A stretch of DNA of 36,911 nt from an uncultured Bacteroidota bacterium (GTDB lineage: Bacteria > Bacteroidota > Bacteroidia > AKYH767-A > 2013-40CM-41-45), in the NCBI GenBank assembly GCA_937871435.1, contig CALMQM010000070.1, forward strand, positions 1-36,911, written 5' to 3'. Positions 1,951-35,856 of the stretch are shown piece after piece. How positions within the stretch are numbered: position 1 is the first letter of the stretch; the number at the start of each line of letters is the position of its first letter. The notes below the pieces were generated by a model, which saw only the letters and a program-made list of their open reading frames with translations, was not told the DNA's origin and made no database searches. The position numbers and the translations under genes were made by a program.

Positions 1951-3885
1951 TTAATTCTCTACGTCATCATCTTCTGCAGGTAGTGTGTCTGACGGAACTA
2001 CCATTTCCCTTGCTGGTCCTTTCAATTCCACAACCGGAACAAGAGCATCATGTTCCTCCTGAGTAATCAAATTCTTTCTGAGCAAAAAATTGGAAACCAC
2101 CCGATAATAATCGGCAAAGTATGGTTTCAGCTGTCCTTGTGTATCAAAACTGTAACGGAACCATTTCGGATGAGGAAGCAAACTGGCAAGGAAAATACTC
2201 TCTCTCAAATTTAACTCAGAAGGTTTTTTCGAAAAATAAAACGGTGCCGCCTCTCCTATCCCATAAATACCGGGTCCAAGTTCGATGATGTTCAGATAAA
2301 CCTCATACATCCTTTCTTTTGAACACAAACGGTTGCTTTCTATCAACCAAACAATCAATGCTTCTTCTGCTTTGCGTGCAACTGTTTTTTTACGTGTGAG
2401 ATATACATTTTTCACCAACTGCATACTGATTGTACTCCCGCCACGCACAAATTTTCCTGCTTTAAAATTCGTCGCGATCGATTTTCGAAATGCTTCTTCA
2501 TTGAATCCATTGTGATAAAAGAAGCTGCCATCTTCGGAAGTCATCACAGCATTCCGGAAATATACTGAGATCTGATCCAAAGGTGTAAATGCCGGATTTT
2601 CCGGACCCACCGGAAATGAACGTACAAAGCGATCGTGTTCATAGACAGAATGAATAAAATCTCCGTTAATTTTTAACAGATAGCTGTCGCCATATTTTCT
2701 TATTCTGAATTTTTCTTTCCTGAGAGAAGCATCGAATAATAAACTGTCAGGTTTTGAGGAATCAAGCTTAAAATCCAACGCAAATTTTAATGTTCCATCT
2801 GCTTCTATTCCTCTTACTACATCAAACATTCCCTCCGGAAGAGAACGGAAAAAATCAGTCGCCGGAGTTTTTGCCGTTTGAATTTTCAATGTATAAACTC
2901 TGCTACTCTCATTGCTGATATTCACATAGGGTGTGATTGACATTTTATCCAGAACCATTCCGGATGTACTGTCAAGAGACAAATAATTTTTACCAACAGA
3001 AACATGATAGTCAAAAGTTGCATGCGGAACCCGTACCGTGTCATCCGCTATTTTTTTGTTGTGGATGCAAAAATTTTCCATCGAAAAATGTCCATCCACT
3101 GCAAGTAAACCACTGCCATAATGCATCGAATACAAGGCCAGATGCAGTGTATCAAAACTGCAGGAGGTGTTTAACAATGGACGCAAAAATGGCAAAGGTT
3201 GTGTCTGTTCCATCAGAGGATAAAACTCCACATCAAATGTTTCTTCACGCTGGGAAAAATGTCCACTCCACTTCCACTGGAACAAAGTAGAATCATCTCT
3301 TAAGATTCCTTCAAGTGACTTGCTTGAAGAAACAAAGGATGGAATCGTCACCGATTGTTCAGTCGTATCATTGCTGAACGACAATTGAATATTTTTCAGT
3401 TCTGCCTGCTGTGGAGCAAGATTAAATGCCTGTCTTAATACTCTGTTCAGAAAAGCTGCATAATTTTTTTCAGAGCGAATGGTGTCATGATCTTCCTTTT
3501 TGTGTTTCAAAAAATTGGAATAATTGCAGGTACCGTCGTGACAGCGAATACTCAACTCGACATTTTCTGTATAGAGGGATTTAATCCTGACATTCCCGGT
3601 AATCAGGGAAGAAAAAGAAGGTTCAGCCCAAACTGAATCCAAATGTAAAAGTGTATCGCCTCCGGCAGGATACAAATTTACTCCTCGCATCATCACACCT
3701 GTCATTCCTCTGAAACCGGATTCCTCTATAGTCAGAGTCATCTGAAACTCGCTTTCAAGGCGATGTGTGATCTTTGTCAACAAACTATGTAGTACAAGAT
3801 TTCTGAACAGGAAATAGCCCAGAACCATGACGAACAAAATACTTGTTAACACAATTGCGGAGCGGTAGAGGAATTTTCGGTTCAT
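1951..3885 (-). CDS. Monofunctional peptidoglycan glycosyltransferase (GT51) with AsmA-like N-terminal region
   Basis: About 644 residues from the ATG at 3885; an upstream in-frame ATG at 3951 adds 22. The inner ATG is chosen because it puts the membrane anchor (about residues 9-27) at the N-terminus. GT51 enzymes polymerise lipid II into glycan strands on the outer face of the inner membrane. All family motifs are in the C-terminal part: SEDGSFFYHNGF with catalytic E451, GGSTISMQLVKN, the RKAEE motif, and EVYLNIIELGPGIYGIGEAA as in MtgA. No transpeptidase domain follows. Residues about 30-400 resemble the AsmA-type extended beta region (a repeating 'deposit/layer' pattern such as VRIKSLYTENVELSI). 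That makes the protein far longer than typical MtgA (about 240). The last residues are acidic and low in complexity. It is convergent with the preceding gene. Confidence 0.88.
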   Translation of the reverse strand: MNRKFLYRSAIVLTSILFVMVLGYFLFRNLVLHSLLTKITHRLESEFQMTLTIEESGFRGMTGVMMRGVNLYPAGGDTLLHLDSVWAEPSFSSLITGNVRIKSLYTENVELSIRCHDGTCNYSNFLKHKKEDHDTIRSEKNYAAFLNRVLRQAFNLAPQQAELKNIQLSFSNDTTEQSVTIPSFVSSSKSLEGILRDDSTLFQWKWSGHFSQREETFDVEFYPLMEQTQPLPFLRPLLNTSCSFDTLHLALYSMHYGSGLLAVDGHFSMENFCIHNKKIADDTVRVPHATFDYHVSVGKNYLSLDSTSGMVLDKMSITPYVNISNESSRVYTLKIQTAKTPATDFFRSLPEGMFDVVRGIEADGTLKFALDFKLDSSKPDSLLFDASLRKEKFRIRKYGDSYLLKINGDFIHSVYEHDRFVRSFPVGPENPAFTPLDQISVYFRNAVMTSEDGSFFYHNGFNEEAFRKSIATNFKAGKFVRGGSTISMQLVKNVYLTRKKTVARKAEEALIVWLIESNRLCSKERMYEVYLNIIELGPGIYGIGEAAPFYFSKKPSELNLRESIFLASLLPHPKWFRYSFDTQGQLKPYFADYYRVVSNFLLRKNLITQEEHDALVPVVELKGPAREMVVPSDTLPAEDDDVEN

Positions 3886-4032
3886 GTGTCCAATCAGACA
3901 CCTAAAATGAGGAAAGTTTAGATAGAATTCAAGAGGAATATTCATACACATCCCTTCGTTAATAATTTTTTCCTCAGGGGGCAGATCGCACTCAGCAACT
4001 GCCTAATTTGTAACACTCTTTGATTTCTCGCT

Positions 4033-5301
4033 ATGCAATGTCACCACCATTTCCAATCGACCGGAATTCGGAATTGGATTTTTCTGTTCCTCTTGCTGCC
4101 ACTGCTTTTGCAGGCACAATCCCCCGCACCTTCTTCCCGGGTATTGAGTGATCCTGCAGACCAGAATACTCTGAATACTTACAGGAGTAAAGCTGAAAAT
4201 TACCTACTCAAAAACCTCAACCGTTTTGGTTTGGAACAGCTACAGGCATACGACCGCGTGTTGGATACACTATTTGAAAAGGAGAAAAAGGACACACTGG
4301 ATCTGATGGAAAAAAATTTCCAGAAGGAATCTTCAGATAGAAAAAACCTGCTGGCAGCAGAACAAAAACACATTTCTGAACTTACAAGCAGCAAGGATAC
4401 CTCACTTGAACGTTACCATGGTCTTCTACGGAAAGCCGCGATAGCTTTCGCAGCGTGGATAATACTTGTATTGATTCTGATGCAATTCCGTAAGCGGAAA
4501 TTAAAAAGTGCTACTACCCGACTGGATGCTACTTTGATCCAACTGCAAAACAGTGAGAAAAGAGCTGAGAATGGAAAGAAGATGATTCAATGGGCGCAAC
4601 AAAGACAGGAAAAAGTCAAACTTCTTTCTACGCTTGGTACAGATTTCTCAGCTGCCATGAAGTTAGCTGATGATCAGTTGCCTGCCGGACATCCATTTGT
4701 AGAAGCAATGAGTGGCTGGGTAAAAAAATCCGATGGCTTACAAATGGCAACTCTGAGAGAATTGCGTTTTAATGAAGCCATCCTGAGTCAGGAAAGAGAT
4801 GCGGGTGAAGAAAAAGTTGCCACCAATATCAACCAATTGTGTGAGCAATACCTTGAAGTAGCACAAAGGGGATATTTGTCGACCGATGGTTCTTACACTA
4901 TTCAGGTTACAAAAGACCTCGAAAAAAATCTTCCTGCAATCAAAATCATCCCTGAAGCTGTCGGAAGTTTGCTTCTGAATGTATTGAACAATGCATTTCA
5001 GGCTGTGATTGAAAAACAAAACAAAGGAATCAAAGGCTACCAGCCAAAAGTTACTGTAAGCACACGCATTCTTCCCCGTTTCCTGCAAATTCGTGTGAAA
5101 GATAACGGTGATGGAATGAATGATGCCGACCTCACCCGTTCAACGGAGGAATATGTAAGCATGAAAGCGCTCGAACAAGGTGTCGGATTAGGATTGAGTG
5201 ACAGTCTGCACATCATGACGGCAATTCACAAAGGTGAACTAAAGCTTGAAAGCCAGACCGGAAACGGAACTGATGTGTACATCAAATTCTATTTATCATG
5301 A
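4033..5301 (+). CDS. Membrane sensor ATPase of histidine-kinase type, degenerate phosphoacceptor region
   Basis: 422 residues. A signal peptide (about 14-29, ending in LLLQAQ) is followed by a helical extracytoplasmic region (about 30-130). Next come a membrane segment (about 134-152), a coiled-coil linker, and a C-terminal HATPase_c domain (about 300-422). The ATP-binding boxes are present: the N box around LLLNVLNNAFQAV, G1 DNGDGM, and G2 GVGLGLSDS with a final GNGTDVYIKF. The dimerisation segment keeps an LG step (LLSTLGTDFSAAMKLADD), but the H-E-x-x-N-P phosphoacceptor motif expected right after it is missing. Autophosphorylation in the usual way is therefore doubtful. The stop overlaps the next start by 4 bases (ATGA), so the two proteins are probably co-translated. 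It heads the set with psuK-psuG. No response regulator is adjacent. Confidence 0.75.
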   Translation: MQCHHHFQSTGIRNWIFLFLLLPLLLQAQSPAPSSRVLSDPADQNTLNTYRSKAENYLLKNLNRFGLEQLQAYDRVLDTLFEKEKKDTLDLMEKNFQKESSDRKNLLAAEQKHISELTSSKDTSLERYHGLLRKAAIAFAAWIILVLILMQFRKRKLKSATTRLDATLIQLQNSEKRAENGKKMIQWAQQRQEKVKLLSTLGTDFSAAMKLADDQLPAGHPFVEAMSGWVKKSDGLQMATLRELRFNEAILSQERDAGEEKVATNINQLCEQYLEVAQRGYLSTDGSYTIQVTKDLEKNLPAIKIIPEAVGSLLLNVLNNAFQAVIEKQNKGIKGYQPKVTVSTRILPRFLQIRVKDNGDGMNDADLTRSTEEYVSMKALEQGVGLGLSDSLHIMTAIHKGELKLESQTGNGTDVYIKFYLS

Positions 5302-6074
5302 AAAGAAATCTTCTGACATATTCAGGCTTCATTCTTCTTGGTTTGATGGTTTTCTCATTTGAAACAAAATCACAAACAGCAGAAGAATTGCAACAGATTA
5401 ATGCCGGGGCAAAAGTCATTTACGTAAAAGCTGAATCACTTGATCAGCTGATGATTCGTTTGCGTCCGTTTGAAAACAATTTACCTGCCGGTCAGGAAAG
5501 CCTGATGATGGATACGTACAGAACTATCGCCAATGGGTATGCCGTGAACAATCATTTCAAGCAGGCATATGAAGTATATAAACGTTATCTTTCTTTTAAA
5601 GAAAATTATTATCTGAAAATCAAATCTGACGCCATCCAATCCGCACAGGCTTCCATTCATACCCGTAAAGATGCCGATGAAAAGCTGGTGATGGATTTGC
5701 AGAATCAGGTATCTCAGTTACAAATTGAAAATGATCAGTTGATCAGCAAACGTTCCAATTTTAAAAAATATTTCTCGGCAGGACTTATTGCACTCAGTGC
5801 TTTGTTCGCTTCACTTCTCGTGGGTTCCGGGATTAAACTTAATTCCATTCGCGTTAAACTGAAACAAAGCAGGGAACGGATGAAAGAAATTCACAGGATC
5901 GCCGCTTTAGGTGCTGCTCCGAATGTGTTTTCCAATACACTGAGCCATCTCAATCAGATTTCTACAGATGCGCAGGAAATCAGCAGTGCAGTGAAGGAAC
6001 TTCAACCCGCGGGAAATACAATTGCGGGACTCACTAAAAAAATAAAAGACTGTATTGAACAGTTGCGCAAATAA
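5298..6074 (+). CDS. Membrane protein with TPR-like sensor part and a kinase-dimerisation-like tail, no ATPase domain
   Basis: 258 residues. A signal peptide (about 1-25) precedes a helical extracytoplasmic region with a TPR-like look (YRTIANGYAVNNHFKQAYEV), a coiled coil (about 125-150), one membrane segment (about 156-178) and a cytoplasmic coiled-coil tail. The tail contains IHRIAALGAAPNVFSNTLSH, which resembles the A-x-LG start of a histidine-kinase dimerisation helix, with H217 nearby. The protein ends before any ATP-binding domain. Its order of parts matches the upstream ATPase, with which it overlaps by 4 bases, so it may be a shortened paralogue that pairs with it. It lies 12 bases before psuK. 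The family is not recognised. Confidence 0.7.
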   Translation: MKRNLLTYSGFILLGLMVFSFETKSQTAEELQQINAGAKVIYVKAESLDQLMIRLRPFENNLPAGQESLMMDTYRTIANGYAVNNHFKQAYEVYKRYLSFKENYYLKIKSDAIQSAQASIHTRKDADEKLVMDLQNQVSQLQIENDQLISKRSNFKKYFSAGLIALSALFASLLVGSGIKLNSIRVKLKQSRERMKEIHRIAALGAAPNVFSNTLSHLNQISTDAQEISSAVKELQPAGNTIAGLTKKIKDCIEQLRK

Positions 6075-16116: not shown

Positions 16117-19100
16117 ATGAGCATGAAACGAAAATTACAAACGAAAATCCTGGTAATTTTTGCGTTGTTGGCAGGCCTCCTTTCGGCCGAAACTTCTCAA
16201 GCCAGTCATACGATGGGTGCCGACCTGACGTATGAATGTCTGGGTGGAAATACCTATAAGATCACCCTTTCATTTTACCGTGACTGTATTGGAATTGCAG
16301 CACCGGCAAATCCATTTGTAACTATCAATTCATCCACATGCGGTCAAAGTCTTGGTGTTACCTGTTATCCCCGCGCCGGAACCGGACAGGAAGTAACTCC
16401 TGCCTGCTCCACTTCTGTTACTACATGTAATGGAGGATCGTTCACAGGTATTCAGGAATGGGTGTACGATGGAATTGTAACACTTCCTGCACAATGTGCC
16501 GATTGGACTTTCAGCTATTCATTGTGTTGCCGAAATGCAGCCATTACTACAATCACAACTCCGGGTTCAAGTACATTCTATATATATGCAACCCTGAACA
16601 ACCTGATTACTCCTTGTAACAGTTCACCTACTTTTTCCAACAAGCCTGTACCATTTATTTGTCGTGGTCAGCAGTATTGTTTCAACCATGGTGCATATGA
16701 TACAGACGGTGACTCCCTGGTATATCAGTTGATAACTCCAAAACAGACTGCAGCAACTACAGTCAATTATATTGCTCCTTACAATGCGAGCAATCCTTTG
16801 AACTCGCTTCCGGCTACAAGCTTTAATTCTGCAACCGGTGATATTTGCATGACACCACAAGCACTGGAAGTCACTGTCATGGCAGTGAACGTTCTGGAAT
16901 ACAGAAATGGTGTGCTTATCGGTAGTGTAGAACGTGACTTGCAGATTACAGTAATGAATTGCATGAACACTCTGCCAACACTTACCGGTATTAATGGTAC
17001 GAATAATTTCTCCATCACTGTTTGTGCAAATCAGCAAACCTGCTTCAACATCTTCTCCAATGATGTGGATGCAGGACAACAACTGACAGTAACCTGGGAC
17101 AATGGTATTCCCGGAGGAACATTTACAACTGATACCGCTTTACATCCTACAGGAACATTTTGCTGGACTCCAACTTCCGCTGACATTGGAAACTCCTACT
17201 CTTTTACAGTAAGAGTTGCCGACGATGCCTGTCCTTATGTCGGAAGTCAGATCTATTCCTACACAGTCAATGTCATGGGACTGAATGTTAGTGCCGGTCC
17301 TGATCAGCAAATTGCATGTAGCGACTTAGCAACACTCAATGCAAATGCTTCTGGTGGTAGTGGTACCTATACTTATCATTGGAATAATGGTTCTACTATG
17401 CAAGCAATAACAGTAGGTGCCGGCACCTGGTGGGTGACTGCCAGTGATGGTACATGTACTGCAACTGATACAGTAGTGGTAACAATGCCATATATCCCGA
17501 CTGCTGCTTTTAATTACTCTCCGACTTCATGTGTCAATAACCCGATACATTTTACAGATCAGTCCACTACTCCCGGAGGAATCATCTGGTCATGGCATTG
17601 GGATTTTGGTGATGGAAGTATTTCTACAATCCAAAATCCAATCCATCAGTATCCGAATCCGGGAACATATGATGTTTCTTTAATCATTGAAAATACTCTC
17701 GGTTGTCAGGATACAATCGTTCAGCAAATCGTTATCAGTCCTCCTCCTGTTGCGGAATTTGCGTCGGCCAACTCTTGTGTAAACACAACAGTTGCATTTA
17801 CCGATCAGACAAATCCTCCGGTTACTACATGGAATTGGGATTTTGGTGATGGTAACACATCTACAATTCAAAATCCAAGTAATGTGTATGATACAGCAGG
17901 TACATATACTGTAACGTTAATTTCAGGTGATGCTTCAGGTTGTATCGATACGGTACAGCACCAGATCACCATTTATCCATTGCCGGTTGCCAATGCCGGA
18001 GCAAATCAGACTATTTGTAGTGGATCTTCTACTACTCTGAATGCAAGCGGTGGCGGTACTTATAGCTGGCAGCCCGGAGGAAGCAGCGGCTCCTCAGTTG
18101 TTGTTTCCCCGGGTGGATCCACTTCATATGTAGTTACAGTAACTGATGCAAACGGTTGTATTGCACGTGATACGGTAAATGTAAATGTGAACCCACTTCC
18201 GACTGTTTCAGCAGGTGCCGACAGATTTCTGTGTGCAGGTGGTACTGTAAACCTTACTGCAAGTGGTGCATTGAATTATACATGGATGCCGGGTGGATAT
18301 ACAACTCAAACGATTACTGTTGACCCTGCAACCAGTACAACCTTTACTGTTATTGGTACAGATGGAAACGGATGTACATTCTCCGATATGGTAGATGTAA
18401 ATGTTGGCCAATTGCCTGTTGTAAACATTGGTCCGGATGTGGATATCTGTGCAGGTGCAAGTACAACACTCAATGCTTCAGGTGGTGTTACATACACATG
18501 GAGCCCTACCGGTGGTGCGAATTCCGGTATCACTGTAACTCCATCCGCTTCTACAAATTATACAGTGGTCGCATCCGATGCGGTAGGATGTACAGCCTCT
18601 GCAACAGTGAATGTAAATGTGCATGATCCTCTCCCTGTAAATCTGCAATCAATATTCCTTTGTGCAGGATCTGTTGCCACACTGGATGCCGGACCGGGAG
18701 GAACATCATACCAGTGGTTGCCAAATGGTGAAACCACACAAGTCATCAACATTACCACCGGTGGCGCATATTCTGTACAAGTGACAGATGCATACGGTTG
18801 CAGTACCACTGCATCATGCAATGTCAATACCGGTTCATCGATCACTATCAATCTTGGAAATGTGTCCTTCTGCCAGGGAGACAGCGCAGTTCTTGATGCC
18901 GGTTATTCCGGTATGAATTATAGTTGGACAAATGGCGCGACAACACAAACCATTGTTGTGAATACTGCCGGAACTTATGGTGTGACTGTTACTGACACTT
19001 CCGGTTGCAGTGGAGCAATCACTGTAACAGCTCAGGTAAATCTTCTCCCGGTTGTAAACTTCAGCGCATCGTCTGTTTGTATTGGCGCCTCTACCCAGTT

Positions 19101-22100
19101 TACAGACGCTTCTTCAGTTGCCGGTGGATCCATCGCTTCATGGAATTGGGATTTTGGTGACACAACAACTTCAAATCAACAAAATCCATCTCATACGTAT
19201 ACCAATCCGGGTACTTATACTGCCACACTTACTACAGTAAGTGCGGCGGGCTGTTCCGGTTCAGCTACACAAACGGTAACAGTTAATCCGCTTCCTGTTG
19301 CTGATTTCAGTGCAAGCAATGCCTGTACAAATACAGCCATTGCATTCAATGATCTTTCTTCCGTGAGCACAGGAAATATCACCGGATTCAACTGGAATTT
19401 CGGAGATGGTTCAACAGCATCTACACAAAATCCTTCGCATGCCTATTCAACTGCCGGTAACTACACTGTGTCGTTACAGGTAACAACAGCCGGAGGTTGC
19501 AGCAGCAGCATTACACATCCTGTAACGATACACCCGTCTCCGGTTGCTGCCTTCACTACAACTCCTGTATGTCTTGGAAGTCCTACAACATTTCTGAATA
19601 ACTCATCTATAAGCACCGGATCAATTGCATCACACTTCTGGGACTTTAGTGATACATATACATCTACTCAATCCGCTCCTTCTCATACATTCGCAGGAGC
19701 CGGAACCTATCAGGTTAATTTAATTGTGACTTCCGGAAATGGATGTTCTGATACAGTGACTCAGGCTGTAACTATTAATCCGTTGCCTGTTGCAAATGCT
19801 GGTACTGACCAATCTTTGTGTAGCGGTAACTCAGCCACTCTTACTGCAAGTGGTGGTACATCCTATGTATGGGCTCCGGGTGGTCAAACCGGTGCAGGCA
19901 TTACTGTTTCACCTTCAACCAACTCAACTTACACTGTTACTGTAACAGATGCGAACGGTTGTACTGCAAGCGATCAGGTAAATGTGCTTGTGAACAGCTT
20001 GCCGGTTGTAATTGCCGGTCCGGATAAAAATATTTGTATTGGTGCAAATACTACACTTACTGCAGGCACTACTGCAACTTGTGTTTGGAATCCCGGCAAT
20101 TTCACAGGTCTCTCCTATTCAGTCAACCCGACATCTACTACTTCATATATAGTGACAGGCACTGACATCAATGGTTGTATTAATCGCGATACGGTAACTG
20201 TCACTGTGAATCCTTTGCCTTCAGTTTCTGCAGGTCCGGATCAAAGCATTTGTATTGGTTCTACGATTTCATTTACAGCAACAGGAGCAAGTACCTATCA
20301 ATGGAATCCGATTGGAAATACCGGTGCCAGCGTATTGATTACTCCATCTGCTAATTCTACATATACTGTCATTGGAACGGATGCAAATGGTTGTGTGAAC
20401 AGTGATATCGTTTCTGTAACTGTAAATCCAATTCCGGTTGTAAATCTGTATCCGGCATTTTTGTGCCCGGGATTCAGCACAACATTGGATGCGGGAAATA
20501 CCGGTTCAACATTCTCATGGTCAACAGGAGAATTTACTCAGGCTATTACAGTGACTGATTCAGGAAATTACACTGTTGTAGTCACAAGTCCGAACGGTTG
20601 TTCTGCTCTGGGTTCCACCCAGGTGACAGTAGGTGGTGGTTTAAACGCCGTTCCTTCTACCACTGCGGTTTGTGCCGGACAATCAGCTACCCTGAATGCA
20701 GGAAATCCTGGCTGTACCTATTCATGGTCAACGGGAGACTCAACTCAAACTATCACAACCAATACTGCAGGAACATATTATGTGACAATTACAGATCCGA
20801 ACGGTTGCAGCGGTTCTGTTGTACACAACGTAGTCGTCAATCCATTACCGGTTCCCGCATTTACTGCTACCCTCAATTGTTTAGGTACCGGTACAACATT
20901 CACCAACCAAAGTACAATCAGTTCCGGTTCAATAGCTTCATATAACTGGAGCTTTGGAGACTCATATTCTGCTGCTACAGCGAATGCGAGTCATACCTAT
21001 GCGTCAGATGGATCTTATACAACAACCCTGAATCTAACTTCGAATGCGGGCTGTACAGCAAGTGTCGCTCAATCAGTACAGGTGTATCCTTTACCGGTTG
21101 CTTCATTCAGTGCAAACACTGTGTGTCGACTAAACCCAACAACATTCACAAATACAAGTTCAATTTCTTCAGGATCTATTACTAACTGGTCATGGAATTT
21201 TGGTGACAATGGAACTTCAAGCGTGCAGTCACCTACACATACCTATGTGATCACAAATTCTTACACAACCACTTTGATTGTAACATCTGATCATGGTTGT
21301 CAGGATACAGTTTCGAACAGTGTTTCTATCAATGGTATTCCTCACGCCGCCTTTACGGTTCCTGATGTTTGCGCCCAATCGACTACACAATTTTCAAATG
21401 CCAGTACCACAAATACCGCGACCATGGCCGGGTATCAATGGAATTTTGGTGATGGAAATGTGTCAACAGCTAACAATCCAAGTTATAGTTATGTTGCAGA
21501 AGGTACATTCACAGTACAATTGATCGCAACAACAACCGCAGGATGTACGGATACTGCAACCGGAACTGTCACTATACATCCATTACCGGAAGCTGATTTC
21601 AGTGTAACTCCTGCCTGTGCAAACAGTCCGGTTGGAATACTGAACTCCAGTTCTGTTGTCAGTGGATCAATAGCAAATAATTACTGGGTATTCGGAGACA
21701 ACTCTACTTCAAGTCAGAATGCTCCTTCACATGCGTATGCAAATGATGGTAACTTCACCATTACACTGATCAGTACAACTGACTTCGGTTGTCGTGATAC
21801 AGTGCAACGCACAGTGGATGTATATCCTTTACCGGTTGCTAATTTCGTTGCACAACCTGTTTGTCAGGGTGCCGAAGTTGAATTCCTCGATGGTTCTACA
21901 ATTTCATCCGGTAGCGTAGTAAGTTGGACATGGGATTTTGCAGACCAGACAGCTTCTACTCTGGAAGAACCTGTACACATTTATTCCAACTCAGGAACAT
22001 ACCCGGTACAGCTTACTGTTACATCGAACAATGGATGTACAAGTGTTTCTTCTAATAATGTAAATATCTTTCCGAATCCGGTGGCGAGTTATTCTACAAA

Positions 22101-23835
22101 TAACGTTTGTTTTGGAAGTGCCAACCAGTTCGTAAATCAATCTACAGTTAGTGGCGGTATTGCATATACAAGTTCATGGGATTTCAGTGACGGTATAACT
22201 TCGACACTGGATAATCCATCTCATAGCTTCCAGAATCCGGGTAACTACAACGTTAACCTTGTAATCACAACAGCCAACGGTTGTACAGATCAGGTAACTC
22301 AAAGTCTGGCTGTTTACATCGGACCTACACCTTATTGGACAGCAAACGATGTATGTATTGGTTTGCCTACTCAGTTTACTGATCAGACTATATCTCAGGA
22401 CGGAGCAATCGCTGCATGGAACTGGACATTTGGTGACGGCGGAGTTTCTACAGAACGCAACCCAAGTCACCAGTACACAAATGCCGGAAATTATACCGTC
22501 TCATTGACTACTACTACAACTTACGGATGTTATGATGACATGCAGGGTGATGTGGAAATTTTCAGATCCATTGCCCCTTCCATTCAAAGCAGCAATGCTT
22601 GTGAAGGAGCTCCTGTTCAGTTTGTCAACAATACTTTAAACACAACCGGCGGAACAGTTAATTACCTCTGGGATCTTGGAAACGGAGTGAGTTCATCCGA
22701 TTCACTCTTCAATTATGTATTCACTACGCCAGGAGTGTATGATGTAACATTGGTAGCTACCACTGATCATGGATGTTCATCCACAGACTTACGTCGTGTG
22801 ACGATCTATGAAAAACCTGCGGTTGATTTCAGCGGAATGGATGTTTGCCAGGGAACTGCAACTGCATTCCATAATCAAAGTACCATCAATAACGGAACGA
22901 TTAGCAGTTATGCGTGGAATTTCGGAGATGCTCAGGCAAGTACCCAGGCTAATCCTTCACACACATACTCAACTCCGGGTCAATATCAGGTATTTCTCTC
23001 TGCTGTATCTAATCAGGGATGTACAAACATTGATTCAACTACGGTGCGGGTAAATCCGAATCCGGCTGTAACTTTTGCCGGAGGATTCCAGGGATGCGCT
23101 CCTTTGGGAGCAATCTTCCACGATAATTCTGTAGTCACTTCAGGAAGTATCGACGGATGGCTTTGGAATTTCGGTGATGGAAATGTTTCAACAGATCAGC
23201 ATCCTACACATTATTATCAGGATGGCGGACAATACAATGTAACACTTACTGTTGTTTCGGATCAGGGTTGTCAGGCCTCTTATACACAAGCGAATGCCAT
23301 TCGTGTGTATGGCCGTCCATTGGCTGATTTCACAATTGATCAGGTGGTTGTAGACAATTTAAATCCGACCGTTCAATTTACCAATTTGTCACAAGGATTT
23401 ACTTCTTATCAATGGCAATTTGGTGATGGTAGTTTCACAAGCTCTACATTGAATCCAATTCATACATTCCAGGATACAGGTTCTTATTCAGCATTGCTGA
23501 TTACTGTAAACTCATATGGATGCCGTGATACAGTACAAAAGACAATTGAAGTTCGTCCGCATTCAACCTTGTTTGTTCCGAACTGCTTCACTCCGAATGG
23601 AGATGGTAAAAATGACGACTTCCGTCCGTACTACACACAAATGAAAGATATTCAAGTGTGGATCTTTGACAGATGGGGATTGTTGCTCACCAGTTGGGAA
23701 GGCCTCAATGGATCATGGGACGGATATTACCAGGGTAAAAAATGTCAGTCTGACACCTATGTATACAAAATCAAAGGATGGGGAGTAGACGGTAAATACT
23801 CCGAATGGGTCGGACACGTGAGTATCGTGTATTAA
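16117..23835 (+). CDS. Giant secreted PKD/Ig-repeat protein with T9SS type B (gliding-associated) sorting domain
   Basis: 2572 residues; a second ATG lies at residue 3. A signal peptide (to about 29, before SHTMGADL) is followed by an N-terminal domain (about 30-285, cysteine-rich, with ITLSFYRDC) and a cadherin-like segment (to about 390). Repeats fill the rest: one Ig-like, two PKD, five Ig-like (622-976), three PKD (977-1222), five Ig-like (1223-1576), eleven PKD (1577-2481). PKD repeats are 81-85 residues and centre on WNWDFGDG or a variant, ending in N-P-S-H-x-Y. Ig-like repeats are about 70 residues with TDxNGC. Nearly every repeat has one cysteine near residue 10 and a GC near residue 70 (60 in Ig-like), probably a disulfide. 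The final 90 residues are the gliding-motility-associated domain (VPNCFTPNGDGKND, WDGYYQG). It is probably exported by T9SS and anchored as a surface adhesin. No catalytic domain is seen. Confidence 0.93.
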   Translation: MSMKRKLQTKILVIFALLAGLLSAETSQASHTMGADLTYECLGGNTYKITLSFYRDCIGIAAPANPFVTINSSTCGQSLGVTCYPRAGTGQEVTPACSTSVTTCNGGSFTGIQEWVYDGIVTLPAQCADWTFSYSLCCRNAAITTITTPGSSTFYIYATLNNLITPCNSSPTFSNKPVPFICRGQQYCFNHGAYDTDGDSLVYQLITPKQTAATTVNYIAPYNASNPLNSLPATSFNSATGDICMTPQALEVTVMAVNVLEYRNGVLIGSVERDLQITVMNCMNTLPTLTGINGTNNFSITVCANQQTCFNIFSNDVDAGQQLTVTWDNGIPGGTFTTDTALHPTGTFCWTPTSADIGNSYSFTVRVADDACPYVGSQIYSYTVNVMGLNVSAGPDQQIACSDLATLNANASGGSGTYTYHWNNGSTMQAITVGAGTWWVTASDGTCTATDTVVVTMPYIPTAAFNYSPTSCVNNPIHFTDQSTTPGGIIWSWHWDFGDGSISTIQNPIHQYPNPGTYDVSLIIENTLGCQDTIVQQIVISPPPVAEFASANSCVNTTVAFTDQTNPPVTTWNWDFGDGNTSTIQNPSNVYDTAGTYTVTLISGDASGCIDTVQHQITIYPLPVANAGANQTICSGSSTTLNASGGGTYSWQPGGSSGSSVVVSPGGSTSYVVTVTDANGCIARDTVNVNVNPLPTVSAGADRFLCAGGTVNLTASGALNYTWMPGGYTTQTITVDPATSTTFTVIGTDGNGCTFSDMVDVNVGQLPVVNIGPDVDICAGASTTLNASGGVTYTWSPTGGANSGITVTPSASTNYTVVASDAVGCTASATVNVNVHDPLPVNLQSIFLCAGSVATLDAGPGGTSYQWLPNGETTQVINITTGGAYSVQVTDAYGCSTTASCNVNTGSSITINLGNVSFCQGDSAVLDAGYSGMNYSWTNGATTQTIVVNTAGTYGVTVTDTSGCSGAITVTAQVNLLPVVNFSASSVCIGASTQFTDASSVAGGSIASWNWDFGDTTTSNQQNPSHTYTNPGTYTATLTTVSAAGCSGSATQTVTVNPLPVADFSASNACTNTAIAFNDLSSVSTGNITGFNWNFGDGSTASTQNPSHAYSTAGNYTVSLQVTTAGGCSSSITHPVTIHPSPVAAFTTTPVCLGSPTTFLNNSSISTGSIASHFWDFSDTYTSTQSAPSHTFAGAGTYQVNLIVTSGNGCSDTVTQAVTINPLPVANAGTDQSLCSGNSATLTASGGTSYVWAPGGQTGAGITVSPSTNSTYTVTVTDANGCTASDQVNVLVNSLPVVIAGPDKNICIGANTTLTAGTTATCVWNPGNFTGLSYSVNPTSTTSYIVTGTDINGCINRDTVTVTVNPLPSVSAGPDQSICIGSTISFTATGASTYQWNPIGNTGASVLITPSANSTYTVIGTDANGCVNSDIVSVTVNPIPVVNLYPAFLCPGFSTTLDAGNTGSTFSWSTGEFTQAITVTDSGNYTVVVTSPNGCSALGSTQVTVGGGLNAVPSTTAVCAGQSATLNAGNPGCTYSWSTGDSTQTITTNTAGTYYVTITDPNGCSGSVVHNVVVNPLPVPAFTATLNCLGTGTTFTNQSTISSGSIASYNWSFGDSYSAATANASHTYASDGSYTTTLNLTSNAGCTASVAQSVQVYPLPVASFSANTVCRLNPTTFTNTSSISSGSITNWSWNFGDNGTSSVQSPTHTYVITNSYTTTLIVTSDHGCQDTVSNSVSINGIPHAAFTVPDVCAQSTTQFSNASTTNTATMAGYQWNFGDGNVSTANNPSYSYVAEGTFTVQLIATTTAGCTDTATGTVTIHPLPEADFSVTPACANSPVGILNSSSVVSGSIANNYWVFGDNSTSSQNAPSHAYANDGNFTITLISTTDFGCRDTVQRTVDVYPLPVANFVAQPVCQGAEVEFLDGSTISSGSVVSWTWDFADQTASTLEEPVHIYSNSGTYPVQLTVTSNNGCTSVSSNNVNIFPNPVASYSTNNVCFGSANQFVNQSTVSGGIAYTSSWDFSDGITSTLDNPSHSFQNPGNYNVNLVITTANGCTDQVTQSLAVYIGPTPYWTANDVCIGLPTQFTDQTISQDGAIAAWNWTFGDGGVSTERNPSHQYTNAGNYTVSLTTTTTYGCYDDMQGDVEIFRSIAPSIQSSNACEGAPVQFVNNTLNTTGGTVNYLWDLGNGVSSSDSLFNYVFTTPGVYDVTLVATTDHGCSSTDLRRVTIYEKPAVDFSGMDVCQGTATAFHNQSTINNGTISSYAWNFGDAQASTQANPSHTYSTPGQYQVFLSAVSNQGCTNIDSTTVRVNPNPAVTFAGGFQGCAPLGAIFHDNSVVTSGSIDGWLWNFGDGNVSTDQHPTHYYQDGGQYNVTLTVVSDQGCQASYTQANAIRVYGRPLADFTIDQVVVDNLNPTVQFTNLSQGFTSYQWQFGDGSFTSSTLNPIHTFQDTGSYSALLITVNSYGCRDTVQKTIEVRPHSTLFVPNCFTPNGDGKNDDFRPYYTQMKDIQVWIFDRWGLLLTSWEGLNGSWDGYYQGKKCQSDTYVYKIKGWGVDGKYSEWVGHVSIVY
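17980..19044 (+). repeat. Five-domain Ig block, copy 1 (inside the giant gene)
   Basis: Residues 622-976. Five Ig-like repeats in order: three long ones opening LPVANAG, LPTVSAG and LPVVNIG, then two short ones with FLCAGSVATLDAG and FCQGDSAVLDAG. The same order and length pattern recurs in copy 2. Confidence 0.8.
19783..20844 (+). repeat. Five-domain Ig block, copy 2 (inside the giant gene)
   Basis: Residues 1223-1576, 354 residues against 355 in copy 1. Repeats open LPVANAG, LPVVIAG and LPSVSAG, then two short ones with FLCPGFSTTLDAG and VCAGQSATLNAG. The position-by-position match of domain type suggests a block duplication with its flanking PKD repeats. Confidence 0.8.
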
Positions 23836-26955: not shown

Positions 26956-29664
26956 ATGAAATTAAAAATCGGAATCGTATTCGGCGGATTCTCACGTGAG
27001 CGGGAAATTTCTTTTGCCGGAGGCCGTACTGTTTACGACAATCTTAACAAGTCACTTTTCGAAGCTGTGCCTTTGTTTGTTGACAGTTTCGGAAATTTCA
27101 TTTTGCTGGACTGGGAATATATCTACAAAGGAAGTATCCGTGATTTTTACCCACCTGTAGATCGACTCCCTCATTCTATTCACGAGTATCAGGTATATGC
27201 GGAGAGTCTTGGTGATCTGTCAGCATCTGAACAGGAAAATTTAATCCATTCTCTGGGTAAAAAAATTTCGCCGGATGCACTGAAAGAAATAATTGATTTC
27301 GCCTTCTTGTGTCTCCATGGTCCATTTGGTGAGGATGGACGAATTCAGGGCCTCTTTGAGTACCTTGGAATTCCTTACTCCGGTTCCGGCATTTTTTCAT
27401 CTGCCATTGGTATCAACAAAGCCATTCAAAAACATTTGATGCAGGAAGCAGGTTTTCCCAGTCCTGCATTTTTCACTATTCAACGAAATGAATGGACAGA
27501 CACTGAATTGAGGAGAAATATTTTCGCCAAAGTAAAAGAGGAAATCGGTTTTCCCTGTGTCATCAAAGCTGCTAATCAGGGATCTTCTATCGGAGTGAGT
27601 ATTTTGATTGAAGCAAATGAACAGAAACTACTGGATGCTGTTCAACAGGCTTTTTTCATTCGAACTATTGATGCAAGCCAATGGAACAAACTGGATGAAA
27701 CGAAACAGGTAGAATTTATCCGTACGCTCACTGATATCCGTGAAGGAATCGGGATTCCGGTTTTACTGAAGAGTCGTTCACCGGAAGATGTTGTTTATCA
27801 TCCTGAACATTTGCTCGATAAAATCAAATCCTGTTTTTCAAATGGGGAAGAAAAAATTCAACTGGAAAGTCTGGATGCGGAGAGCGAAGTTCTCATCGAA
27901 GGATTTATTTCCGGAAAAGAATTTTCATGCATTGTGATACGGAATGAAAATGGTCTGCCTGTGGCTTTACCTCCGACTGAAATCAGAAAAGGAAAAGAAC
28001 TTTTCGATTACCGTTCAAAATATTTGCCCGGACTCTCCAGGAAAATAACTCCCATTCATCTTCCGTATGAACACATTCAACAAATTCGTAAGGACTGTGA
28101 ACGATTATTTTTATCCTTAGGATTTAATGTCTATGCTCGTATCGACGGATTTATCAATGAAGAAGGAAAAGTATTTTTGAATGATCCGAATACTACCTCC
28201 GGAATGATGCCTTCCTCCTTTTTCTTTCATCAGGCTGCCGAAATCGGTTTGAATCCTTCGCAGTTTCTCACCTACATCATCCGCACTTCTCTTTGGGAAA
28301 GAAAAAAGGACATGAAAAATATTGTCCGTATTCCAAAACTATTGAAGCAATTGGATGAAGATATATTATCTCTCAGATCCGCAGGCAAAACAAAAATCAG
28401 AGCCGCGGTCATTATGGGTGGTTACTCATCTGAAAGACATATTTCTGTTGAAAGCGGAAGAAATATCTATGAAAAATTATCCTCTTCTGAAAAATACGAA
28501 GCCATTCCGATTTTTTTGAGCGGGAATAACGAGCATCATCAGCTAAATCAGATTCCTGTGAACCTCATGTTGAAAGACAATGCGGATGATATTCGTGAAA
28601 AAGCAATGCATTATGAAGTTCATGAAGTCATTCAGGAAATCATGGATCAGTGCGAGAACATTACGTCCAAATACACGGATGCCGACAATGTTCTTCAGCC
28701 ACGTCAGATTTCCTATGCTGAACTTGCTGAACTCTGTGATGTCGTGTTTATCGCTTTGCACGGCAGACCGGGTGAAGACGGTGAAGTGCAACGTCATCTT
28801 GAATCTGTTGGTTTGCCTTACAATGGCTCCGGTGTTGACTCTTCAAAAGTTACCATCAACAAATACGAAACAAACGAAATTTTACAACGCAACGGATTTT
28901 CCATTGCAAAACATGCTTTGGTAAATATTGCAGATTGGAATCTGGATAAAAATGCGTTTGTAAAAAATATTCTTCAACGCTTCTCGTTTCCTTTCATTGC
29001 AAAACCTGTTGATGATGGATGCAGCAGCGCAGTCAAAAAGATCCGCAATGAAGAAGAACTAATAGCTTTTTCTGATTTAATATTTCGTCAGCAGGAAGAA
29101 CTTATTGCCGCTGATGCGCAGATTCTTCATCTGAAAATGAAAGAAGAATTTCCAAGAAAGCAACAATATCTGATTGAAGAATTAATCGAGAAAAAAGGTG
29201 CCACTCACTTTCTGGAAATCACCGGCGGTATGCTCACTCACCTGAATGACAAAGGCGAACGAAGCTATGAAGTATTCGAAGCGTCTGAAGCACTTTCGGA
29301 AGGCGATGTCTTGTCGCTGGAAGAAAAATTTCTTGCAGGAGAAGGACAAAATATCACGCCTGCCCGATACGCGAAGAATCCGGATGAACGCAAAAGAATC
29401 TCCGATGAAGTGCGTATGCAGTTGAAAAAAGCCGCGATCGTTCTCAATATCGAAGGTTACGCACGTATTGATGCATTTGTACGAATATTCTCTGACGGAA
29501 AAGTAGAAGTAATTTTCATCGAAGTAAATTCGCTCCCGGGAATGACCCCGGCTACTTGTATATTTCATCAAAGTGCAATAGCCGGATACAAACCTTATGA
29601 ATTCATTGATGGAATTCTTGAATATGGAATGCAAAAGAAAAAATTACCTGTCCGCATAGACTGA
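26956..29664 (+). CDS. Double D-alanine-D-alanine-ligase-like protein (two fused ATP-grasp ligases)
   Basis: 902 residues, more than twice a normal Ddl (about 300-370). Half 1 (1 to about 465) starts with IGIVFGGFSREREIS and E15. Its ATP loop is intact (K204, GSSIGV at 209-214), but the metal-binding end reads NDPNTTSG: D410 replaces the usual Glu, N412 is kept and the P-G is lost. It also has an insertion between the loop and the grasp region (about 220-310). Half 2 (about 480-902) starts AAVIMGGYSSERHIS with E493. It has a changed loop (K683, DDGCSS) but an intact end: D839, E856-V-N858 and LPGM. Each half keeps what the other has lost. Ddl makes D-Ala-D-Ala for peptidoglycan; here the substrate is uncertain. 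It lies 11 bases before the PASTA gene. Confidence 0.85.
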   Translation: MKLKIGIVFGGFSREREISFAGGRTVYDNLNKSLFEAVPLFVDSFGNFILLDWEYIYKGSIRDFYPPVDRLPHSIHEYQVYAESLGDLSASEQENLIHSLGKKISPDALKEIIDFAFLCLHGPFGEDGRIQGLFEYLGIPYSGSGIFSSAIGINKAIQKHLMQEAGFPSPAFFTIQRNEWTDTELRRNIFAKVKEEIGFPCVIKAANQGSSIGVSILIEANEQKLLDAVQQAFFIRTIDASQWNKLDETKQVEFIRTLTDIREGIGIPVLLKSRSPEDVVYHPEHLLDKIKSCFSNGEEKIQLESLDAESEVLIEGFISGKEFSCIVIRNENGLPVALPPTEIRKGKELFDYRSKYLPGLSRKITPIHLPYEHIQQIRKDCERLFLSLGFNVYARIDGFINEEGKVFLNDPNTTSGMMPSSFFFHQAAEIGLNPSQFLTYIIRTSLWERKKDMKNIVRIPKLLKQLDEDILSLRSAGKTKIRAAVIMGGYSSERHISVESGRNIYEKLSSSEKYEAIPIFLSGNNEHHQLNQIPVNLMLKDNADDIREKAMHYEVHEVIQEIMDQCENITSKYTDADNVLQPRQISYAELAELCDVVFIALHGRPGEDGEVQRHLESVGLPYNGSGVDSSKVTINKYETNEILQRNGFSIAKHALVNIADWNLDKNAFVKNILQRFSFPFIAKPVDDGCSSAVKKIRNEEELIAFSDLIFRQQEELIAADAQILHLKMKEEFPRKQQYLIEELIEKKGATHFLEITGGMLTHLNDKGERSYEVFEASEALSEGDVLSLEEKFLAGEGQNITPARYAKNPDERKRISDEVRMQLKKAAIVLNIEGYARIDAFVRIFSDGKVEVIFIEVNSLPGMTPATCIFHQSAIAGYKPYEFIDGILEYGMQKKKLPVRID

Positions 29665-35160: not shown

Positions 35161-35856
35161 ATGATTCGGATACTATTAGTCGAAGACGAAGAACACCTGC
35201 AGGAGGCAATAAAGCTCAATCTGGAGCTGGAAGGATACAAAGTAGTTGCTGCCAGTACAGGTACCGAAGCTGTAAAAATTTTCAAAGCAGAACGTTTCAA
35301 CCTGGTTGTTCTGGATGTGATGCTTCCTGAAATGGATGGCTTTGCTGTTTGTGAAGCGATTCGTTTGCACAATGGCACAGTACCTATTCTTTTTCTTTCA
35401 GCAAAGAATGCTTCAGAAGACAAGATCATGGGATTGAAGCGGGGAGCAGATGACTACATGACCAAACCATTTAATCTGGAAGAATTTCTTTTACGTGTAA
35501 ATGTCCTCGTAAAACGAAGTATGAGTCAGGATGAAAAGAAAGAAATCAATGACATTTTCCGTTTTGGTGGTAATGAAGTGAATTTCAAAACCTATGAAAT
35601 ACTTGGGAAAGAAAAAGAAAAGATTCGTCTGACAAAGAAAGAAATCGCCTTACTTAAACTCCTGATAGAACGAAAGAATGAAGTGGTATCAAGAGAACAG
35701 ATTCTGGAGACTGTCTGGGGTTATGACATCTATCCATCCACACGAACTGTAGATAATTTCATCCTTGCTTTTAGAAAATACTTTGAAGTGGATCCCAAGG
35801 AACCCCGCTACTTTTACTCTATTCGTGGGGTTGGTTACAAATTCATGACAGAATAG
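35161..35856 (+). CDS. OmpR/PhoB-family response regulator
   Basis: 231 residues, the standard two-domain length. The receiver domain (1 to about 118) has the acidic pocket E8-D9, phosphoacceptor D52 in LVVLDVMLPEMDGF, LFLSAKNA with the switch serine, and the KPF lysine. The winged-helix DNA-binding domain (about 132-229) shows LTKKEIALLKLLIERKNEVV, REQILETVWGYD, STRTVDNFILAFRKYF and the final IRGVGYKF. No histidine kinase gene adjoins it in this window, so its partner is elsewhere; the ATPase gene at 4033 is 31 kb away and lacks a normal phosphoacceptor. Confidence 0.95.
   Translation: MIRILLVEDEEHLQEAIKLNLELEGYKVVAASTGTEAVKIFKAERFNLVVLDVMLPEMDGFAVCEAIRLHNGTVPILFLSAKNASEDKIMGLKRGADDYMTKPFNLEEFLLRVNVLVKRSMSQDEKKEINDIFRFGGNEVNFKTYEILGKEKEKIRLTKKEIALLKLLIERKNEVVSREQILETVWGYDIYPSTRTVDNFILAFRKYFEVDPKEPRYFYSIRGVGYKFMTE

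Follow-up and report, generated by a model that had tools for sequence, protein, structure and literature searches.

Canonical histidine kinases pass phosphate from ATP, bound in the CA domain, to the histidine of the H-box, with a neighbouring acid acting as base. To our knowledge, bacterial pseudo-histidine kinases have been met mostly singly, as in the case of DivL. For DivL of Caulobacter, PMC4211667 describes a histidine kinase fold without the histidine in a single protein that binds DivK and has a low affinity for ATP. According to PMC3591291, CheA3 and CheA4 of Rhodobacter sphaeroides carry the ATP-binding part and its partner on two proteins, with a phosphorylatable P1 domain on CheA3, the CheA proteins belong to a cytoplasmic chemotaxis cluster, and 1556 of 42417 HisKA proteins are without an ATPase domain. 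FasB and FasC of group A Streptococcus, as presented in PMC12675982, are two sensor-kinase-like proteins that are reported to heterodimerise; both have a putative ATPase domain, FasC retains a needed histidine (H246), and the response regulator FasA is encoded in the locus.

The two adjacent genes analyzed here, A and B, resemble the TPR-type HisKA/HATPase_c sensor kinases of the Bacteroidia in their outer TPR-like helices, coil, transmembrane (TM) segment and hairpin, and A has an ATPase domain of the same type. They differ from these kinases in that the H-box, which reads ASLGQLTAGIAHEIQNPLNF in the H-box region of canonical TPR-type relatives in the same genomes, is lost from both proteins, B has no ATPase domain and the function is spread over two genes. 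Like CheA3/CheA4, A and B place the ATP-binding part and its partner on two proteins, but B has no conserved acceptor to compare with the P1 domain of CheA3, and both are membrane proteins. Given the count in PMC3591291, ATPase-less partners are not rare; what is unusual is that B is also without the HisKA histidine. The pair shares with FasB/FasC the presence of two sensor-kinase-like proteins, whereas the retained histidine, the second putative ATPase domain and the response regulator in the locus, as given in PMC12675982, set the streptococcal system apart. Unlike DivL, A and B are two paralogues in one operon, with the ATP boxes intact. In the literature searched, whose coverage excluded subscription journals and preprints, and, for the longest lists of results, among the 12 titles listed of each, no published description of the A-B pair was found.

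The A-B locus

The window, which is the whole stretch of 36,911 nucleotides that was analyzed, is one contig of a 4.36-Mb genome. It contains the following features of the pair.

4033 to 5301, plus strand: gene A, encoding a 422-aa membrane-anchored pseudo-histidine kinase with an intact HATPase_c domain and no H-box
4423 to 4482, plus strand: TM segment of A, residues about 131-150 (hydropathy; at the matching place in 15/15 orthologues)
4573 to 4797, plus strand: degenerate DHp-like hairpin of A, residues about 181-255 (AlphaFold helices; 13% mean pairwise identity)
4798 to 5298, plus strand: histidine kinase-type ATP-binding (CA) domain of A, residues about 256-422 (PF02518, invariant columns, VIA-align Z 20-22 to histidine kinase CA domains)
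5062 to 5094, plus strand: A-specific motif T-R-x-L-P-R-F-x-Q-x-R, residues 344-354 (beta hairpin before the DNGxG box)
5298 to 5301, plus strand: overlap ATGA of A stop and B start (4 bases; the same overlap in 8/16 pairs)
5298 to 6074, plus strand: gene B, encoding a 258-aa membrane-anchored paralogue of A without the ATPase domain
5379 to 5612, plus strand: extracytoplasmic TPR-like helical part of B, residues about 28-105 (AlphaFold helices, class-wide profile matches)
5778 to 5834, plus strand: TM segment of B, residues about 161-179 (hydropathy)
5910 to 6071, plus strand: cytoplasmic degenerate DHp-like hairpin of B, residues about 205-258 (AlphaFold, hhalign, identity)
5946 to 5948, plus strand: codon of H217 of B, proposed as phosphoacceptor (histidine in 1/16, not conserved)

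The sequence-only reading of this DNA had described two open reading frames overlapping by four bases, and these were found exactly as described; A and B are probably co-translated. Each protein has a signal-like N-terminal hydrophobic stretch followed by one further TM segment, although this stretch in the window's A fell below the 1.5 cut-off of the hydropathy script, yet is plain by eye.

Distribution and gene order

Ten of the 11 family genomes contain B, in open frames that span 262-302 codons, and the best matches of A lay in the same 10 genomes, adjoining B. Among the 42 genomes of the order, 16 gave a match to B at E 1e-3 or better. A search with a profile built from A orthologues (A1) returned 16 of the 42 at E 1.9e-83 or better, the next matches (1.0e-61) being long kinases. 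The two sets of 16 genomes are identical and neither gene is present in the remaining 26, with the reservation that the joint loss of adjacent genes is not independent evidence of association. A precedes B on the same strand in all 16 loci, directly adjacent, with the 4-base overlap in eight and gaps of 1-4 bases in seven; in the remaining locus (L018) the gap is 40 or 67 bases, depending on the start codon chosen. Co-occurrence of the two genes, on which the earlier proposal of a joint function depended, is thus borne out. Identity among orthologues of the pair is about 17-47% across the 16 genomes, and frame lengths range from 404 to 430 aa for A, one copy of which is cut by a contig end, and from 248 to 298 aa for B.

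Profiles were also run against 395 genomes from the class, scoring the best six candidates per genome for B and the best four for A. Ten genomes, each of them within the order, were matched by the B profile at E 2e-68 or better, and the next match was at 4e-13; the A profile matched ten genomes at 3.4e-123 or better, followed by 2.1e-66. The A-B unit is thus order-specific among the genomes examined. A further 13 confirmed contig loci, which overlap the loci of the genome search and do not form an independent sample, all contained both genes and came from Bacteroidetes, Bacteroidota or Bacteroidia (12 of the 13 from a MAG and one labelled 'uncultured'). The A-B pair is real and old.

Homology of the two proteins

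Comparison of 15 A with 16 B orthologues by hhalign gave a probability of 98.1% and E 1.2e-13 over 200 columns (A 40-242, B 66-258), a span that runs from the outer helices through the TM segment into the hairpin. Long coils can inflate such scores; the TM segment and the outer helix of A and B are nonetheless in register. Judged from their sequences, A and B are paralogues from outer helix to hairpin. The shared layout that had been noticed from the window therefore reflects true homology, except for the 'A/T-LG step' that had been listed as part of it. While 'AALG' of B (202-205) lies at the homologous place, 'TLG' of A (200-202) does not correspond to the canonical A-S-L-G, whose place in the alignment with canonical kinases is around G181.

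In a midpoint-rooted tree of ATPase domains the 15 A proteins formed one clade (100/99) beside canonical kinases; the H-box of A thus seems to have been lost once, long ago, and the frames have stayed open since. The weaker matches of the B profile belong to long sensor-kinase frames of the TPR type (as read for two of them, L064 and L067), and in the class-wide search this profile also picked up one A protein, in G003, with E 1.8e-9.

ATPase domain of A and loss of the H-box

Pfam HATPase_c (PF02518) matched A at residues 310-419 with E 3.5e-12 and 47.2 bits (cut-off 26.4). The domain was recognized in 15/15 A orthologues and HisKA in 0/15, these and the following counts being out of 15 because the A of one locus (L044) is cut by the contig end. 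The ATP boxes consist of N320, D357-N358-G359-x-G361 and G385-x-G387, and N320, D357, N358, G359, G361, G385 and G387 are invariant in all 15 A as well as in the 31 canonical kinases aligned with them. N, G1 and G2 boxes are present in A only, B having no such domain. A has a degenerate F-box (PFFTTK), so its affinity for ATP may be low, as PMC4211667 reports for DivL. Mean pairwise identity is 45% in the ATPase domain and 13% in the hairpin.

The canonical histidine column corresponds to residue 189 of A, which is Gln in the window and reads Q G K G S E H S D A K A N Q A across the 15 orthologues. Its single histidine (L015) lies outside any H-box pattern. The E, N and P of the H-box are scattered without any E/N/P pattern in the 15 sequences, whereas the glycine preceding the H-box position is still glycine in 9/15. 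A full ATPase domain without H-E-x-x-N-P, as first read from the window, was in this way confirmed by the Pfam matches and the H column, and the phosphoacceptor H-box (H-E-x-x-N/T-P) is found in neither A nor B. It had also been considered that a conserved histidine elsewhere in A might act in the normal manner. None was found, the best-conserved column being H399 (11/15), which is part of the 'H-x-G' of the ATPase domain common to the 31 canonical kinases.

The 31 canonical kinases used for alignment and tree were picked because they carry this subtype of H-box, and the set leaves out two frames, L008 and L119, that also have an H-box; the presence of the H-box in 31 of 31 is therefore true by construction, and the unselected count is the one to use. 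That survey comprised 52 frames in the loci that show ATPase-like motifs. Fourteen of these are A and 0/14 have an H-box, one is a methyltransferase and a false match, and all 37 other histidine-kinase ATPase frames have it (33 by motif and four as a variant). Similarly, an H-box is present in each of the best 30 of the 50 HATPase_c matches in the window's own genome (by motif in 28, by eye in two), with A ranking 34th.

Family-specific residues and predicted structure of A

Residues D295, E297, K298, K334, G335, Y336, R345, L347, P348, R349, F350, Q352, R354, E402, E406 and D414 are conserved in A only. Within this group R345, L347, P348, F350 and Q352 are present in 15/15 A and not conserved in the 31 canonical kinases. 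In the AlphaFold model the segment R345-x-L-P-R-F-x-Q-x-R forms two strands (339-346 and 350-357) just before DNGxG. By the hydrophobic pattern of canonical kinases, eight of nine A-specific strand residues point outward, towards the open side of the sheet; with a permutation p of 0.12, the idea of a binding face here is weak and suggestive only.

The A model, built from 15 sequences, had a mean pLDDT of 84.5 and a pTM of 0.60, and consists of helices 63-215 and 223-252 (pLDDT mostly >80) followed by an alpha/beta domain; a DHp-type helical hairpin is thus present in A, while that of B was modelled at low confidence. Foldseek against the PDB returned 322 matches at E 0.001 or better, with ZraS as the best (1.3e-16) and HK853, YycG, KinB, PDK and BCKDK further among them. 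With VIA-align, A matched 4u7o_A (a histidine kinase with ATP) at Z 22.1, YycG at 22.0 and ZraS at 21.8. DivL (4q20_B; Z 21.2, rmsd 1.6, 144 aligned) was also among the best structural matches, and the ATPase domain of A matched PDK3 (1y8p_A) at Z 21.6, rmsd 2.0, with 159 aligned. A thus combines the histidine kinase fold with a missing phosphoacceptor, as in a pseudo-histidine kinase, and as such would act by binding and lack autokinase activity.

Protein B and its histidines

A Pfam scan of B gave no match above cut-off. The AlphaFold model (pLDDT 82.2, pTM 0.43) shows outer helices (28-38, 45-60, 67-83 and 87 onward), a long TM helix and two short cytoplasmic helices (210-235 and 240-257) of low confidence (pLDDT 58-77). 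A Foldseek search of the PDB with this model returned no match at E 0.001 (best E 0.52), so the TPR-like nature of B rests on sequence and helix pattern. The outer TPR-like part is the best-conserved region of B, with 30% mean pairwise identity compared with 15% in the hairpin, and B may possibly be the signal-input half of the pair.

The sequence-only reading had B end after one dimerisation-like helix with H217 and suggested that B may supply the histidine or the signal input. H217 is present in the window, and the two cytoplasmic helices of the model, albeit of low confidence, indicate a whole short hairpin rather than a single helix. As a phosphoacceptor, H217 was rejected; it is histidine in 1/16 B orthologues, the window's own, which counts against the mechanism proposed earlier. 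No cytoplasmic histidine is conserved across the 16 B, and no conserved phosphoacceptor borne by the partner, as in a split kinase, was found. The best-conserved histidines are H86 in the outer part (12/16) and then H199 (window 5892-5894; 8/16). The latter, just before the 'RIAxLG' step, is histidine in 8/10 B of family f1 and 0/6 of family f5. The canonical site is histidine in 1/16. In this one B (L010; 1441-2217, plus strand) the histidine stands where canonical kinases have it, at +8 from LG, but E-x-x-N does not follow; it is perhaps the last trace of an ancestral H-box.

Gene neighbourhood

Downstream of the pair the window contains a pfkB kinase and an Indigoidine_A protein, which by their family names presumably belong to a pseudouridine pathway; both are found in 3/13 loci. 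Upstream lies a divergent transglycosylase (1951-3951, minus strand; PF00912 at residues 450-599), whose long N-terminal region has a weak DUF748 match under the cut-off. It adjoins the pair on A's side in 6/13 loci, and in one f5 locus it lies beyond a DUF456 gene. A functional link was rejected, the transglycosylase being present in 37/42 order genomes whether or not they have the pair, so that the neighbourhood looks like plain synteny. In G001, the f1 genome without the pair, the transglycosylase is in another setting, and no trace of A or B was seen around it.

A phmmer search of the 13 loci with the window's OmpR-type regulator (E 1e-5) revealed no response regulator next to the pair, and no response regulator family was among the 25 of 80 Pfam families listed for 48 neighbour proteins; a regulator may be encoded elsewhere. 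The OmpR-type regulator itself (35161-35856, plus strand) is about 29 kb from the pair, has no adjoining kinase gene within the contig and is an apparent orphan. Elsewhere on the contig, a 902-aa ORF (26956-29664, plus strand) contains two D-Ala-D-Ala ligase units in frame, a fused tandem Ddl with the N domain in two stretches and the C domain in four, and in a 2572-aa protein (16117-23835, plus strand) PKD domains are numerous and accompanied by a CHU_C type IX secretion signal domain.

Proposed function and alternative explanations

With moderate confidence, we consider A and B to be tandem paralogues, derived from TPR-type histidine kinases of the Bacteroidia, that form a two-subunit membrane signalling unit without histidine autophosphorylation and with nucleotide-dependent binding as output. 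Since the acceptor histidine and the adjacent acid are missing from both proteins, neither A nor B is likely to autophosphorylate on histidine, nor is A likely to phosphorylate B in this manner, and the pair probably signals by a route other than a phosphorylated histidine. Selection has preserved the ATP-binding site, both outer parts and TM helices, as well as a new surface on A, and we therefore regard a heteromeric receptor as the most likely reading; an A-B heterodimer is plausible. A and B would pair through TM helix, coil and hairpin, and their outer parts would sense a signal in the envelope. This signal would alter the binding or hydrolysis of ATP in the single ATPase domain of A and through it the conformation of the domain. 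The output would be the nucleotide-dependent binding of a target, which might be a response regulator, a further kinase or some effector and be contacted perhaps through the A-specific hairpin R345-LPRF-Q352-R354 together with E402, E406 and D414; the analysis found no such partner.

An unlikely alternative is that A phosphorylates the histidine of a canonical kinase in mixed dimers, B being a modulator that holds A at the membrane. The intact ATP site would allow this, and the nearest relatives of A in the tree are canonical H-box kinases, several copies of which are present in its own genome. The residues common to canonical dimers are gone from the hairpin of A, however, and A is conserved together with B in the same 16/42 genomes and not, as far as was seen, with any one kinase.

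That the pair is a true split histidine kinase, in which a histidine of B, be it H217, H199 or a different one, is phosphorylated by A and the phosphate then handed on from B to a response regulator, we regard as very unlikely. Layout and pairing fit this earlier proposal, natural examples exist in CheA3/CheA4 (PMC3591291), H199 is histidine in 8/16 B, all of family f1, and in the B of L010 the canonical position (+8) is occupied by histidine. Against these stand the single occurrences of H217 and of a canonical-site histidine among 16 B without a conserved cytoplasmic histidine, and 13 loci in which no response regulator was found adjoining the pair. Split kinases are defined by an acceptor on the partner, and since B bears no conserved one, A-B is not of that class; on our preferred reading the unit would work more like a pseudokinase receptor, perhaps as DivL and other pseudokinases do.

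It is likewise highly doubtful that A is a serine/threonine kinase with a histidine kinase fold and a Ser/Thr target, in the manner of PDK/BCKDK or RsbW, even though structures of PDK and BCKDK score as high as histidine kinases against its ATPase domain. In kinases of the PDK/BCKDK and RsbW types, an acidic residue four positions ahead of the N-box Asn serves as general base. This position (316) is acidic in 1/15 A (Asp, L013) and otherwise N, F, H, S or C, and no STAS or anti-sigma family was among the 25 of 80 Pfam families listed for 48 neighbour proteins.

A relic, that is a decaying kinase operon whose function is gone, would agree with hairpins near 13-15% mean pairwise identity in both proteins and with the lack of the pair in 26/42 order genomes, but is extremely improbable, as the frames are open, full length and in the same order in 16/16 loci, save one A at a contig end, and the ATP boxes and the new motif are invariant across two families.

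Implications

Domain scans that name A a 'sensor histidine kinase' would mislead. Returning to the two-subunit receptor without autophosphorylation, we tentatively suggest that A and B represent a duplicated-kinase receptor family with one ATP-binding subunit, in which phosphate transfer was lost from both proteins and which, in two families of an order of Bacteroidia represented here by environmental genomes only, may act as a transmembrane nucleotide switch that needs no phosphorelay and whose new hairpin, T-R-x-L-P-R-F-x-Q-x-R, binds the output partner. The conserved operon is a natural test of what use the ATPase half of a histidine kinase has without autophosphorylation.
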